Positions 1,379-54,665 of a DNA stretch of 64,000 nucleotides are shown piece after piece. Source of the stretch: Curtobacterium herbarum (GTDB taxonomy: Bacteria; Actinomycetota; Actinomycetes; Actinomycetales; Microbacteriaceae); the NCBI RefSeq assembly GCF_016907335.1, contig NZ_JAFBBT010000001.1:3348001-3412000 (forward strand), written 5' to 3'. The notes beneath the pieces are model-generated. The model worked only from the letters and a program-made list of their open reading frames with translations. It did not search any database and was not told the origin of the DNA. Made by a program: the position numbers and the translations under genes. Positions within the stretch are counted from its first letter, which is position 1. Every line of letters starts with the position of its first letter.

Positions 1379-3171
1379 CGCACGGCTCCCGGTCCGGGGA
1401 CACCGGTCCAGACGGGAGGCCCGTCCTGCGTCAGCCACGCCGGTGCGCCGGGTGCAGCACCGGTCCACTGCCCGGGCCACGGCCCGGCTGCCGGCCCGGC
1501 TGCCGGCGCGGGCGCCTGCGCGTGGCGACCCGGCGTACCGGCGGTGGGTCGGGCCTCCTGGCCGTCACGCCAGCGGTGCGACGTGTCCCGCGCGGCGGCC
1601 TCGACGGCCCGCTCGGTGGTGCCGGACCAGAGCCGCTGCGCGTCCCCGGCGTCGAGCGCGCCGACGCGGGCGGAGACCGGACCGCTGACGGTGTGCACGT
1701 GGACCGAGGCCAGGCGGAGCGCCCGCTCCAGCGGCCCCTGGGTGACCTTGACGCTCTGCACGCGCGGCAGCGGCACGACGACGAGCGAGCGCCAGACGGC
1801 ACCGAGTCGGAGCAGCACGGCGCCGGGCACGAAGCGGTAGCCGTTGCGGGAGGCCGACAGCGGGCGCAGCCAGCGGCCCCGTCGGGGCGAGTGCACGAAG
1901 CCGCCGCGGTCGCCGCTCGTGGTCAGGCTGTCGTCGACCACGCCGACGGCCTCGGCGGAGCCCTCGCGCATCCGGGCCAAGGACGCCGCCGGCCCGACGA
2001 CGGCGGAGCCGACGAGCTCGGGCAGGATGATCTCGAGGACCTGCCGGACCTCGGCCGCGGTGCCGACCGGCAGCACGATGGACGAGACCTGCTGGTTCCG
2101 GGACGCACCGTTGCCGGCGTTCGTCGCCCGGTTGATGCGGATGTCCCACCAGCCGAACGGACGCCAGAGCAGCGGCTGCGCGACGCTCACGGCGTGGATG
2201 CGGCCGGGCGGCAGCGTCTCGTTCGACGTCGAGAACAGGCCGAAGCCGATCCGGATGCCGTCGCGGGTGTCGGCGATCGTGTACCGGAGCGACTTCGAGA
2301 ACTTGCGGACGTAGTAGCCGCCGGCGCCGATGACGGCCGGGAACAGCGAGACGAGCAGGAAGTACTGGCCGGTCAGGCTGATGCTGACGACGATCGCGAC
2401 GACGAGCAGCAGGATCACGACGGTCGTGCCGGAGAGCAGCATCGACCCGATCAGCCGGCCCGGGTGGACACGGACGACCCGAGTGGCGTGCACGGCCTCG
2501 GGGTCGAGCTCGGGTGCCAGGAACTCGTCGACCCGGCCCTGCAGGACCCCGCCGCTCGCACCGGCGTACCGGGGGCGGTCGGTCTCCTTCGCGCCCGAGG
2601 CGAGCACCAGGATGCGCTGCCGCAGGTCGTCCGCGGCCTTCGCACCGAGGTAGGCGAGCTGCACGTTGGCGTCGTTGCCGGCCTGCGCGACCTCGAGCTT
2701 GGCGGTGCCGAACAGCCGCGGGATCAGCGGCCGCGAGATGTTGATGCCCTGGATGCGGTCGAGCCGGGCCTTGCGGTGCGTGCGGAAGACGACGCCCGAA
2801 CGGACCTCGACGATCTCGCCCGTGACGCGGAACTCGTGCATCCGCCAGGACAGGTAGAACAGGCCGATCAGCACCAGGAGCAGCACCGTGATGCCGAGCA
2901 GCACCCAGCCGACGACGCCGTGCTCGTACACGTAGCGGACCGGGTCGCCCTCTTCCTGCGGACCGCCCTCGCCCGGGATGAACACCTCGACGATCTGGTC
3001 GCGGAGGTTGTTGATGACGTAGCCCAGGATCACCACGAGGAAGATGCCGCCCTTGAGCAGCGGCGTCAGCGGGTGCAGCCGGTGCCACTCGCCGTCGGTC
3101 AGGGGCGCGGCCGCGGCGGCGTCGCCCTTCCGCGGCGGTGCGGGCATCGAGGCGTCCGGTCGGAACGACAC
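1375..3171 (-). CDS. large membrane-anchored bacterial PH (bPH2, YdbT-type) protein
   Basis: A 598-residue protein of the YdbT type: several bacterial pleckstrin-homology (bPH2) domains alternating with membrane helices. Hydrophobic segments are visible near residues 38-55, 85-110 and 240-290; bPH2 blocks follow each of them, with the repeated signature of arginines and 'RIQGINI' / 'RIHAVSV' / 'RVQSVKV' strands, giving three copies. The C-terminal 60 residues are Pro/Ala/Gly-rich. The small PH gene upstream (8 bases away) is its usual partner (YdbS-like). In other bacteria such pairs have been linked to membrane-associated or stress functions, but a specific role is not established. The stop overlaps the start of the DUF2520 gene. 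Confidence 0.85.
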   Translation of the reverse strand: MSFRPDASMPAPPRKGDAAAAAPLTDGEWHRLHPLTPLLKGGIFLVVILGYVINNLRDQIVEVFIPGEGGPQEEGDPVRYVYEHGVVGWVLLGITVLLLVLIGLFYLSWRMHEFRVTGEIVEVRSGVVFRTHRKARLDRIQGINISRPLIPRLFGTAKLEVAQAGNDANVQLAYLGAKAADDLRQRILVLASGAKETDRPRYAGASGGVLQGRVDEFLAPELDPEAVHATRVVRVHPGRLIGSMLLSGTTVVILLLVVAIVVSISLTGQYFLLVSLFPAVIGAGGYYVRKFSKSLRYTIADTRDGIRIGFGLFSTSNETLPPGRIHAVSVAQPLLWRPFGWWDIRINRATNAGNGASRNQQVSSIVLPVGTAAEVRQVLEIILPELVGSAVVGPAASLARMREGSAEAVGVVDDSLTTSGDRGGFVHSPRRGRWLRPLSASRNGYRFVPGAVLLRLGAVWRSLVVVPLPRVQSVKVTQGPLERALRLASVHVHTVSGPVSARVGALDAGDAQRLWSGTTERAVEAAARDTSHRWRDGQEARPTAGTPGRHAQAPAPAAGPAAGPWPGQWTGAAPGAPAWLTQDGPPVWTGVPGPGAVR

Positions 3172-15318: not shown

Positions 15319-15338
15319 CCGCGTCCGACCAAGACGAA

Positions 15339-15378
15339 ACCCCGGCGATGTGGCTGTGGCCAGGGATCGTTCCGGGGT
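15339..15378 (+). ncRNA. candidate structured leader RNA of the broken Abi/HEPN gene
   Basis: A 40-base stem-loop: outer helix ACCCCGG/CCGGGGT (7 pairs), middle helix CGAT/ATCG, inner helix TGGC/GCCA closed by the tetraloop TGTG, with small internal bulges. It ends 34 bases before the ATG of the broken gene. The intact Abi gene at 52.6-53.3 kb has a leader of the same order and size but with different base pairs in every helix, which supports an RNA structure under selection. Whether it acts as an antitoxin RNA, an attenuator or both cannot be told from sequence. Confidence 0.55.
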
Positions 15379-15412
15379 CTTCGAAGGAGATTGTACACGG
15401 AGAGGAACGACC

Positions 15413-15956
15413 ATGGGAGATTGCGCGCCGACAGAGGAACGATGCGCACTGACGGAGCTGATCACTCGCGCTCGGTTGTCCTCCTACGAGCGCTCCATGA
15501 GCTCGACCAGAGGCGCACTCCGGTTGTACGAGTGGAACATGCGGACCGCTGCCAGCGTGATGGAGCTCACCGGCATGGTGGAAGTGGTCTGTCGGAACGC
15601 GCTCGACCGAGAGCTGGAGGCGTGGTCGAGTCGTGGCTGAACTCACCTTCGGGTTCTGGCGGTACCTCGTCGAATCCCGCTACCACACGTCGCTCTGGGT
15701 ACCGGGGCTGCATCGGGCATTCCCGCACGGTCCCGCCGAACTGCGAACTCGCGGGAAGGAGGTGAAGCTCCGGTTGCAGCAACTCCACTACGTACGCAAC
15801 CGAGCAGCACACCACGAACCGATCCACCAGCGAGACCTGCGTCGGGACCACGACTACGCGATCGAGCTGCTCGGATGGATCAGCCCGGTGGCCGCGGAGT
15901 GGGCGTCCGCGACGACTTCTCTGCCGGCCCTGCTCGACGGCCGCCCCAGCCCGTGA
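15413..15956 (+). pseudogene. broken Abi-family HEPN protein gene
   Basis: Two overlapping reading frames together match the intact Abi-family protein encoded at 52.6-53.3 kb. The first (from ATG 15413, with GGAGAGGA before it) gives SSYERSMSSTRGALRLYEWN... and ends at 15640 after EAWSSRG; the second, in a different frame from about 15633, gives AELTFGFWRYL, LWVPGLHRAFP and RNRAAHHEPI. Compared with the intact copy, about 57 codons between these blocks are missing and the join is out of frame, so the gene is an internal deletion. The HEPN motif RNRAAH survives in the second fragment. Sequencing error could explain a frameshift but not the lost segment. Confidence 0.8.
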
Positions 15957-52627: not shown

Positions 52628-53314
52628 CTACGGACGCCGAGCGAAGACGATCGCGACCGTCGACGTGGCAGTGAGGTGCTCGTGCACTTGCGGTGCGATG
52701 CCCCGGAGGAGGGCGAGCATCTCGCGGTGGACCTGCTCCGCATCCACCGACCCGGACTGTGTCGAGATCGGCTCGTGGTGCGCGATGCGATTCCGGAGCG
52801 CGTTGACCCGCTCGATCGCACGGTCGACCTCGGACCGTTGCGTCCCCGGGGGGAACGCTCGGTGCAGGTACGGCACCCACACCGTCTTCTCCATCGCGTT
52901 CGTCGTCAACTGCCGCCAGAAACCCAGGGTCATCTCGGCGATCACCTTGCCGGACGTCGCCTTCGCGGAGCCGCAGCGCGCGATCGCGCTGTCGACCGAC
53001 TTCCGGGTGAGCGTGTTGACGTCAGCCCCACGCTTCATGCCCTTCACGGTCTTCGTGCGCCAGATCGGCACGACAGCCGGCGACTCCGCGTCGAGCAGCC
53101 AGTGCGTGCGTGATCGCCACCGCGCTGAGATGGCAGCGTCGTACGCGTTCCGGAGAGCGACTTCGAAGTGGGCGATGTCGTGCATGAGTGCTTGGCCGGC
53201 TTGGACGTTCCACTCGTACAACTGCAGCGCCCTGGCCCGGTCACCAGAGCACGCATCCACGTACCGAGCGAACCGCGCGGTACCGAGCCACTCGTCCACC
53301 CAGACGTCCGACAC
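52628..53314 (-). CDS. Abi-family HEPN protein
   Basis: A 228-residue protein of the abortive-infection (Abi_2/AbiD/F-like) family. The N-terminal part reads FARYVDACSGDRARALQLYEW, then LRNAYDAA; the C-terminal half has MTLGFWRQL, WVPYLHRAFP and the HEPN motif RNRIAHHEPI (Arg174, His179), a ribonuclease active-site signature. No transmembrane or signal segment. GTG at 53314 with GAAGGTGGGG is taken as start: it aligns with the start of the broken paralogue. An ATG at 53356 is in frame but lies inside the leader hairpin. HEPN Abi proteins act as phage-triggered toxins or RNA-guided nuclease relatives; the toxin role here is inferred. See findings for its RNA leader. Confidence 0.8.
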   Translation of the reverse strand: MSDVWVDEWLGTARFARYVDACSGDRARALQLYEWNVQAGQALMHDIAHFEVALRNAYDAAISARWRSRTHWLLDAESPAVVPIWRTKTVKGMKRGADVNTLTRKSVDSAIARCGSAKATSGKVIAEMTLGFWRQLTTNAMEKTVWVPYLHRAFPPGTQRSEVDRAIERVNALRNRIAHHEPISTQSGSVDAEQVHREMLALLRGIAPQVHEHLTATSTVAIVFARRP

Positions 53315-53342
53315 ATCCCCACCTTCACGAGACAAAAAGCAG

Positions 53343-53384
53343 AGCCCCGGCGACATGGTCGAAACCAGCGGTCCACACGGGGCT
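53343..53384 (-). ncRNA. candidate structured leader RNA of the Abi/HEPN gene
   Basis: A 42-base stem-loop: outer helix AGCCCCG/CGGGGCT (7 pairs), middle helix GAC/GTC, inner helix TGGT/ACCA capped by a TTCG tetraloop, a very stable hairpin. Three bases after it comes C followed by five T (53338-53334 on this strand), so the whole has the form of an intrinsic terminator. A promoter-like -10 box ends about 11 bases upstream of the hairpin. This predicts a short RNA of about 55 nucleotides, with some read-through into the HEPN gene. The broken paralogue has a matching leader. It may be an antitoxin RNA or an attenuator. Confidence 0.6.
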
Positions 53385-53394
53385 TACGGGTGAA

Positions 53395-53424
53395 ATGTTA
53401 CCCCGGGCCCGAACCGACGTGCAA
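53395..53424 (-). promoter_or_regulatory. promoter of the Abi leader RNA
   Basis: On the minus strand TTGCAC (53424-53419) and TAACAT (53400-53395) are separated by 18 bases; transcription would begin around 53388, at the foot of the hairpin. The -35 box is only a moderate match. Confidence 0.45.
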
Positions 53425-53437
53425 CGCCGACGGAAGC

Positions 53438-54403
53438 TCAGTGCCCCCGGTGGTCCTGGATCGTCATCCGCGGCCCGAACGTCGGCTTCCGGAAGCCCGA
53501 GCCCGCGATCAACCGCACGACCCGCTCCCGGTGCCCCCGCCACGGTTCGAGGAGCTCGAGCATCCCGTCGTCGTCGACCGGGCCGCCGGTGAGCGCCCAC
53601 CCGACGAGTGCGGGCACGTGGTAGTCCCCGACGCTCGGCGAGTCCGGGTCCCCGTGGGCCCGCTGCGCCGTCTCGGCGGCGGTCCACGGTCCGACGCCCG
53701 GGATCGACTGCAGTCGGCTGGCGACCAGTTCGCCGCCGCGGCCCAGGGCCAGCGTCCGTTCGAGTGCGGGCGCGACCTGCACGACCCGCATCACCGTCGC
53801 CGAGCGTCCGGGTTCGATGCCGGCCCTGTGCCACTCCCAACTCGGGATCCGCGCCCAGGTGTCGGCGGCCGGCGGAACGACCATGCCCGCCGGAGCCGGC
53901 CCGGGAGCCGGCGTGCCGAAGCGCTGCACGAGGTACCGCCACGCACGCCAGGCCTGTCGGGAGGTCACCTTCTGCTCCATGATCGCCGGGACGAGCATCG
54001 CCACGACCGTGTTCGTCCGGAGCAGCCGTAACCCCGGCTGGCGGTGTCGCGCGTGCGCCAGGAGGGCATGCGCGGACACGTCGAGCTCCGACCAGTCGTC
54101 CCCGCGTCCGACCAGGTCCGGCCCGTGCGCCACGGCCCAGGACGCACCGTCGCCCCACGCGCTGATCGCCACGGTGTCGCCGACGGGTCGGACGAGCACC
54201 GACGCCGGCCCCTCCGGGGTGCGGAGCGCGAGCCACACGTCGGACCCGACCACCCGGTGGGCCGGGTCGCCGGAGCCGCGCGACAGGGGCCGCAGTGTCG
54301 CGACCACGTCCACCGGGCCTCCCGGCCGGTACACGGTGTCGACGCGAACTGCAGCCTCGTCCGGAGGGCCCGCCGGTGAGGCGACGGGACGGACGGAGGG
54401 CAT
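53438..54403 (-). CDS. DNA-3-methyladenine glycosylase II family protein
   Basis: A 321-residue HhH-GPD base-excision glycosylase (AlkA-like). Conserved pieces: IMEQKVTSRQAWRAWRYLV, the helix-hairpin-helix SIPGVGPWTAAE, and the catalytic-Asp segment VGDYHVPALVGWAL. The N-terminal 110 residues form the AlkA_N-like beta domain. Removes alkylated bases; no Ada-like gene nearby. Start ATG MPSVRPVASP. It is upstream of and co-directional with the Abi gene, with its own promoter region between them. Confidence 0.85.
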   Translation of the reverse strand: MPSVRPVASPAGPPDEAAVRVDTVYRPGGPVDVVATLRPLSRGSGDPAHRVVGSDVWLALRTPEGPASVLVRPVGDTVAISAWGDGASWAVAHGPDLVGRGDDWSELDVSAHALLAHARHRQPGLRLLRTNTVVAMLVPAIMEQKVTSRQAWRAWRYLVQRFGTPAPGPAPAGMVVPPAADTWARIPSWEWHRAGIEPGRSATVMRVVQVAPALERTLALGRGGELVASRLQSIPGVGPWTAAETAQRAHGDPDSPSVGDYHVPALVGWALTGGPVDDDGMLELLEPWRGHRERVVRLIAGSGFRKPTFGPRMTIQDHRGH

Positions 54404-54455
54404 GCAGGGATGGTAAGTGCCGGCACGGACACTCACCGACCGAGGAGCAGTCGGT

Positions 54456-54665
54456 TCAGCGCCGGGGCCGCCGGCGTCGAGCACGGATCACCGCGCCGAG
54501 GGCGCTACCGGCACCGGCCGAGGTCAGGCCCAGGACCACGGCTCCCACGATCTGGTTCGGCGTTCCTGCCGTCGCAGTGGCGACGGTGGCGCCGATCAGG
54601 ACGAGGGCGAGCGCGAGCGCCGACGCGAACGGAACACTCCGGAAGACCTTCCCGATCTTGTTCAT
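54456..54665 (-). CDS. small two-helix membrane protein
   Basis: A 69-residue protein: short basic N-terminus, hydrophobic helix FASALALALVLIGATVATATAG, a second hydrophobic stretch PNQIVGAVVLGLTSAGAGSALGAVI, and a basic tail RARRRRPRR. It begins 3 bases after the stop of the secreted cysteine protein, so the two are likely co-translated. It could be an immunity or anchoring partner of that protein; this is a guess from position and size. Confidence 0.65.
   Translation of the reverse strand: MNKIGKVFRSVPFASALALALVLIGATVATATAGTPNQIVGAVVLGLTSAGAGSALGAVIRARRRRPRR

Follow-up and report, generated by a model that had tools for sequence, protein, structure and literature searches.

A conserved hairpin RNA beside an AbiF-like HEPN protein in Curtobacterium herbarum, most likely a toxin with its RNA antidote

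What does a compact hairpin do when it stands directly upstream of a HEPN gene? We studied this question at positions 52628-53424 of a 64,000-nucleotide (nt) stretch of the Curtobacterium herbarum genome (assembly GCF_016907335.1, contig NZ_JAFBBT010000001.1, positions 3,348,001 to 3,412,000; hereafter the window), where the minus strand carries a promoter-like element, a hairpin, a T-run and a gene for a small HEPN protein. A first-pass annotation, made from the sequence alone, had read this cassette as a possible AbiF-type HEPN toxin with a cognate RNA antitoxin, or a possible RNA-gated defence cassette. That idea is supported here by the fold of the protein and by conservation and covariation of the RNA, and further by the promoter position and by a second site at which the toxin was lost while the RNA was retained. 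Taken together, these results point to a genuine unit of RNA and protein, most likely a toxin and its RNA antidote, and we consider it probable that the cassette belongs with the AbiF-like toxin-antitoxin units and that its hairpin RNA directly holds the HEPN ribonuclease inactive.

The hairpin RNA and its HEPN protein

The layout named in the first-pass annotation was recovered element by element on the minus strand. A putative RNA promoter at 53395-53424 consists of a -35 element TTGCAC (53419-53424) and a -10 element TAACAT (53395-53400) with an 18-nt spacer, and 10 nt separate TAACAT from the start of the 42-nt hairpin (53343-53384). CTGC lies between the hairpin and five T (53334-53338), and hairpin and T-run together form an intrinsic-terminator-like element. 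With its start taken from the -10 element and its 3' end from the T-run, the predicted small RNA would span 53334-53388, about 55 nt. It is followed by GAAGGTGGGG and a GTG start at 53314, which opens the gene of the 228-amino-acid (aa) Abi_2/AbiD-F-like HEPN protein (52628-53314). The longest open reading frame is 52628-53356; because its ATG at 53356 falls within the hairpin, and because the relatives L001-L007 have an ATG or GTG at the position of the GTG, the latter is the likelier toxin start.

Conservation is the decisive evidence that the hairpin exceeds chance. In eight aligned loci its columns are 92% pairwise identical, against 42% in the upstream flank and 56% on the 3' side, and from Curtobacterium to Rothia (L001-L007) the hairpin is nearly constant while the flanks diverge. 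It is present in the close full-length relatives (L001-L007, L086, L139 and L140; proteins 58-76% identical); no such hairpin was found at L024, a gene fragment with 71% identity over residues 2-69, or at L011, whose contig stops nearby. Prediction of the leader fold gave a divided answer, as 53 nt folded moderately better than shuffled sequences (z -2.5; 4 of 200 shuffles equally good) but the 101-nt leader was not unusual (z 0.15); since this longer leader is ordinary, folding energy was rejected as evidence. At a Corynebacterium locus (L010) there are two same-strand copies of the hairpin, at 1686-1741 and 2900-2955, the second adjoining the Abi gene.

The reverse complement of the same hairpin was identified upstream of nine relatives with 40-51% protein identity (L149, L150, L152, L156, L157, L159, L161, L145 and L087). 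A covariance model, R1, was trained on those nine sequences only, with none from the Curtobacterium-Rothia clade. Its best match in the window was the hairpin at 53343-53384 (55.7 bits, E 2.1e-11), and the second was a hairpin at 15338-15379 (30.8 bits, E 2.8e-5), which neighbours a decayed Abi-like gene; across the whole genome only these two reach E 1.

The hairpin is built from a stem P1, a stem P2 (GAC/GUC), a 3x1 internal loop (CGC/U), a stem P3 (UGGU/ACCA) and a UUCG loop. RNAalifold, run on 29 RNAs aligned by sequence only (A8), recovered P1, P2, the internal loop and P3, with two-sided changes in 6 of 10 pairs. Pairing cells in this structure amount to 95.8% compared with 84% in shuffles, double-change cells to 35 compared with 8.2, and covariation to 0.375 compared with 0.141. 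None of 500 shuffles, a control that ignores kinship among the sequences, equalled the alignment on even one of the five measures; slid structures paired at 32-55%. Within the nine training sequences alone, P2 and 7 of 8 P1 pairs are invariant and the support comes from P3. The hairpin bases are thus both conserved and covarying.

Wider relatives are less uniform. At 65 of 107 loci, the 200 nt examined contain a GC-rich stem whose 5' arm includes CCC, compared with 655 of 5187 control windows; such a stem is absent from the other 42, many of which have other hairpins by eye. A universal P1-P2-CNC/N-P3 rule for Abi_2 RNAs was tried and rejected: the pattern was found in 55 of 123 distinct upstream regions (either strand) and in 41 of 642 control windows per strand, so it is enriched but not general. 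Several clades, L094-L098 and some of the Bacteroidota among them, show different hairpins. Upstream of L089-L091, L093, L151, L158, L160 and L162, two unlike hairpins appear in tandem by eye, a GC stem and one of the CAGCGGUC type.

The protein carries the RNRIAHH motif that the first-pass annotation had assigned to R174 and H179, and with it the R-phi-x3-H catalytic motif (R174-N175-x3-H179). R174 and N175 are invariant and H179 is at least 90% conserved in 80 aligned sequences. A PDB sequence search gave only unrelated entries at E 1.5 or worse and a fold comparison was therefore needed, by which the predicted structure has an AbiF-type HEPN fold; BFVD gave no match at E <= 0.001. The profiles went only part of the way with the AbiF assignment. 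The predicted fold agrees with it, but the Pfam Abi_2 score of 20.5 bits lies under the curated cut-off of 25.6 (reached by 5 of 10 relatives scanned), and the RNA is not the RF03085 RNA of AbiF. The best PADLOC model, which has no curated cut-off, was PD-T4-5 (26.1 bits, E 1.2e-6, residues 44-208 of a 242-aa reading).

Orientation of the RNA relative to the toxin gene

To describe where the RNA lies, we tabulated 56 of 85 R1 rows, nine of them training data. The rest comprise rows from the window itself, duplicates on the opposite strand, L082 (which duplicates L084) and rows of lower significance (E > 0.1 in one R1 search, E > 0.014 in the other), the last including L017, L022 and L103, for which the two strands score equally; L128-L136, near-copies of L127, lay outside the search set. 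Fifty-two of the 56 places are within 350 nt upstream of an Abi-like start, with 17 co-directional and 35 divergent, although near-copies among them (L005/L140, L008/L141, L009/L142) mean that these are not counts of independent events. The four other places are L046, L040 (~950 nt off), a second place in L012, and L084, a broken gene whose start was extrapolated.

A promoter-like sequence stands at a fixed place in these units. In a sample of 48 RNA units from which near-duplicates had been removed, a TANNNT box was found 8-13 nt 5' of the RNA in 45 and at the mirror place in none, and a TTG at -35, 16-19 nt from the -10, was found in 26. The cassette thus has the appearance of a small RNA gene with its own promoter directly upstream of the toxin.

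A protein tree of 137 rows (midpoint root; 93 rows unlabelled for orientation) separated 13 co-directional rows from 31 divergent ones by a branch with 100/99 support. Because the co-directional rows form one side of this branch, the RNA unit was inverted once, most simply from divergent to co-directional. A run of at least four T lies within 14 nt of the hairpin in 9 of the 14 co-directional units and in 5 of the 34 divergent ones; at the mirror place, 1 unit of 48 has such a run. The group of the window's own cassette seems to have gained its terminator after the inversion, as a single event at most, since this group is one lineage and the T-run terminator is absent from L086 and L141-L144 of the same clade.

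These orientations bear on the possibility that the hairpin is a cis-only attenuator, a regulated terminator in the toxin 5' leader whose released RNA has no function. In the window's own group the hairpin is indeed followed by a T-run, with the toxin start 22-30 nt further on, and RCd22 of Clostridioides difficile is described as working partly by termination (PMC12373285). However, in 35 of 52 places the same RNA is divergent from the toxin and still keeps the letters of its loop and internal loop; attenuation of the toxin mRNA is impossible there, and we regard this explanation as unlikely. For the same reason, read-through from the RNA into the HEPN gene, which the first-pass annotation had suggested, does not hold as a general mechanism.

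RNAs that remain without a toxin

The second RNA unit of the window (15338-15379, minus strand) belongs to the same superfamily, has a -10 element TACAAT (15390-15395), and is divergent from its neighbour, a decayed Abi_2-like gene (15455-15944, plus strand) with an internal deletion that leaves two pieces in different frames. This AKR-EPI site retains the RNA in 7 of 10 genomes of the genus. The toxin is intact in G354 and G031, broken in C. herbarum and in G105 (by a frame shift in G105, where an assembly error is possible), and gone with the RNA kept in G257, G327 and G214. G379, G295 and G163 have no RNA, toxin or EPI neighbour in the stretch examined, and none of the 10 genomes has the toxin without the RNA. 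An RNA that outlasts its toxin is what an antidote-toxin pair predicts. In G257 (L168/L179), a different open reading frame, NYN-like by eye, takes the place of the lost toxin between EPI and AKR, beside the kept RNA.

The same site speaks to the possibility that the RNA is a cofactor that activates or guides the HEPN nuclease, as the CRISPR RNA (crRNA) does for Cas13. The RNA is short and structured, and a common ancestry of AbiF and Cas13 has been put forward (PMC12165695, PMC12737573). But most RNA letters outside P3 are conserved and no variable guide region is present, and survival of the RNA after loss of the toxin is expected of an antidote, not of an activator; we give this explanation little credence.

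RNAs without a toxin were also found elsewhere. R1 matched in 14 of 398 Microbacteriaceae genomes (E 0.01, stricter filters): five matches adjoin an Abi gene, whether whole or broken (L163, L165, L167, L170 and L172), and four RNA-like matches have no Abi gene in the 3 kb examined (L166 with 57.6 bits, L168, L169 and L171). Three IMG/VR contigs carry an RNA of the second-site type, namely L210 (1248-1285, 37.6 bits), L211 (4165-4204, 24.2 bits) and L212 (7223-7260, 34.0 bits), and a Streptomyces plasmid, L213, carries one at 3005-3045 (62.0 bits) with no Abi gene within about 3 kb. In the 6-14 kb examined around these four RNAs no Abi relative was detected at E 0.01, and no TANNNT box was found in its usual place. 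L212 includes L171 in full (3042 bases, 100% identity) and encodes a terminase large subunit, so that the G339 orphan RNA is located within a prophage-like element. Nine further proteins near these RNAs were scanned; one matched a PHROG of unknown function and eight matched none. The viral-contig RNAs are candidate RNA decoys. RNAs of the window's own type were not found in phages, either by a pattern scan of viral contigs or by blastn of phages.

Several observations weigh against the antidote reading. Terminator-like sequences score up to 33 bits with R1, and the other five of the 14 genome matches (L173-L177, 27-33 bits) resemble terminators or chance by eye. The -10 box is kept in only 2 of 8 toxin-less RNAs checked. 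In the 12 kb around the orphan RNA L166 (L198), none of 137 homologue queries was better than E 0.005, and one reached that value.

Two further explanations fare worse. In a type I-like antisense control the RNA would pair with the toxin mRNA, and in divergent relatives it might run antisense across the toxin leader; in the window, however, RNA and toxin share a strand, the RNA has no complementarity to its own toxin mRNA, and its letters and helices are unchanged, which makes such control very improbable. That the hairpin, a GC hairpin with five T about 55 nt past the stop of the glycosylase-like gene (53438-54484), is simply the intrinsic terminator of that gene is already contradicted and scarcely credible, even with plain-terminator-like sequences reaching 27-33 bits in R1, for the promoter sits between gene and hairpin, the hairpin sequence, internal loop included, is preserved between genera where the flanks are not, and two empty-site genomes have neither toxin nor R1 match beside the glycosylase gene. 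At these empty sites (G031 and G105) the gap between the glycosylase-like and epimerase-like genes, measured from tblastn ends, is 51 and 37 nt, respectively; in C. herbarum and L001 the cassette lies between the same two genes.

Relation to AbiF and other systems

The cassette resembles AbiF with its abiF RNA in having a HEPN protein of AbiF fold with the R-N-x3-H motif, and a promoter, a compact hairpin RNA, a terminator and a toxin in one direction. It differs in its 228-aa protein, which is sub-cut-off for Abi_2, and in that the RNA of many relatives is divergent. C. difficile AbiF is a toxic HEPN protein that requires R202 and H207, and its upstream RNA, RCd22, which is mostly terminated, binds AbiF directly and thereby acts both in cis and in trans (PMC12373285). 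RCd22 has two RF03085 motifs and a separate terminator, whereas here one hairpin is both RNA body and terminator. A structure of PbAbiF with its noncoding RNA (PbAbiF-AbiFr, 8vz6) and a descent towards Cas13 are described as well, with AbiF as the proposed Cas13 ancestor and its RNA as the proposed crRNA forerunner (PMC12737573, PMC12165695).

RF03085 was rejected as the family of the present RNA, since it gave no hit in 53250-53550 at E values up to 10. C. herbarum has a canonical abiF RNA elsewhere (47.8 bits, C1:2668189-2668224; L085 1501-1536), overlapping the start of a long AbiF-like HEPN open reading frame with RNRCAH in the same direction, which offers a comparator within one genome. 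Conversely, R1 at E up to 5 missed the RF03085 RNAs of 7 loci. A 3x1 core common to both RNAs looks possible by eye and is kept as a lead, but the minimum free energy structures of RF03085 members favour another pairing. No other Rfam family matched the RNA at gathering score in the searches made (20 of 80 loci of the first relative set and 20 loci chosen later). The layout thus works like that of AbiF and its RNA, yet the RNA is not filed under RF03085, because it matches neither this nor any other Rfam family searched. Relative to Rfam and the literature searched, in which no paper on this RNA was found, both the RNA family and the inverted layout are new. The RNA may be among the covariance models of the Zilberzwige-Tal 2025 group, of which 'AbiF5_iter3' and 'diverse_rna_xinsi' are named in PMC12804078; that work is cited or described in PMC12373285, PMC12737573 and PMC12804078.

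PD-T4-5, the best PADLOC model, is likewise a HEPN protein, described as a plasmid-borne abortive-infection gene of E. coli distantly related to AbiF/D, and no RNA antitoxin is named for it in the available text of PMC9519451. With this model, three PD-T4-5-like proteins of enterobacteria, 333-334 aa long, reach 82.7-84.1 bits, compared with 26.1 bits for the present protein. On four Enterobacterales plasmids (L206-L209), a near-constant noncoding block with a terminator-like hairpin lies about 60-150 nt upstream of PD-T4-5-like genes; Rfam gave a single sub-threshold match (E 0.95) on this block, which is possibly an unrecognised antitoxin RNA.

The toxins of ToxIN, TenpIN and CptIN have a fold unrelated to HEPN and their RNA is a repeated pseudoknot, whereas a single unrepeated hairpin is found here. 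What these type III systems would share with the cassette is an upstream-encoded RNA antidote of a ribonuclease toxin (PMC12373285). A toxin-less antitoxin-like RNA, pseudo-ToxI, is reported from phage PhiTE (PMC3475682); L210-L212 resemble it as toxin-less phage-borne RNAs of a different family, and a decoy role for them would be by analogy. A cyanophage with an RF03085 RNA has also been published (PMC9964418). Apart from these systems, a Guanidine-II riboswitch at L139 2268-2314 follows the toxin gene at a distance of about 100 nt.

In the mechanism that we propose for the antidote reading, a sigma-70-type promoter would drive a hairpin RNA of about 55 nt terminating at its own U-tract, and occasional read-through would yield the mRNA of the HEPN ribonuclease. 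The RNA would bind the HEPN dimer directly and neutralise it. A fall in the RNA pool, through phage infection or loss of the element, would free the toxic ribonuclease and stop growth, by which the unit may act against phages. We advance only tentatively, and hold to be rather unlikely, the broader proposal that AbiF-like HEPN toxins are kept in check by a large undescribed family of hairpin-antitoxin RNAs, mostly encoded on the opposite strand with a promoter of their own; that the unit was inverted in one actinobacterial clade, where the hairpin of the present group became a toxin-throttling terminator; and that toxin-less phage and plasmid copies are trans decoys like the PhiTE pseudo-ToxI.

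A second RNA family beside the AbiF fold, covarying and strand-swapping, if true, would separate the features recognised by the protein (P2, the 3x1 internal loop and P3) from the mode of transcription. R1 provides a means of finding such units where Rfam sees nothing, and the candidate phage-borne RNA decoys become directly testable. The finding also hints at where the missing antidote of single-gene systems such as PD-T4-5 may be encoded.
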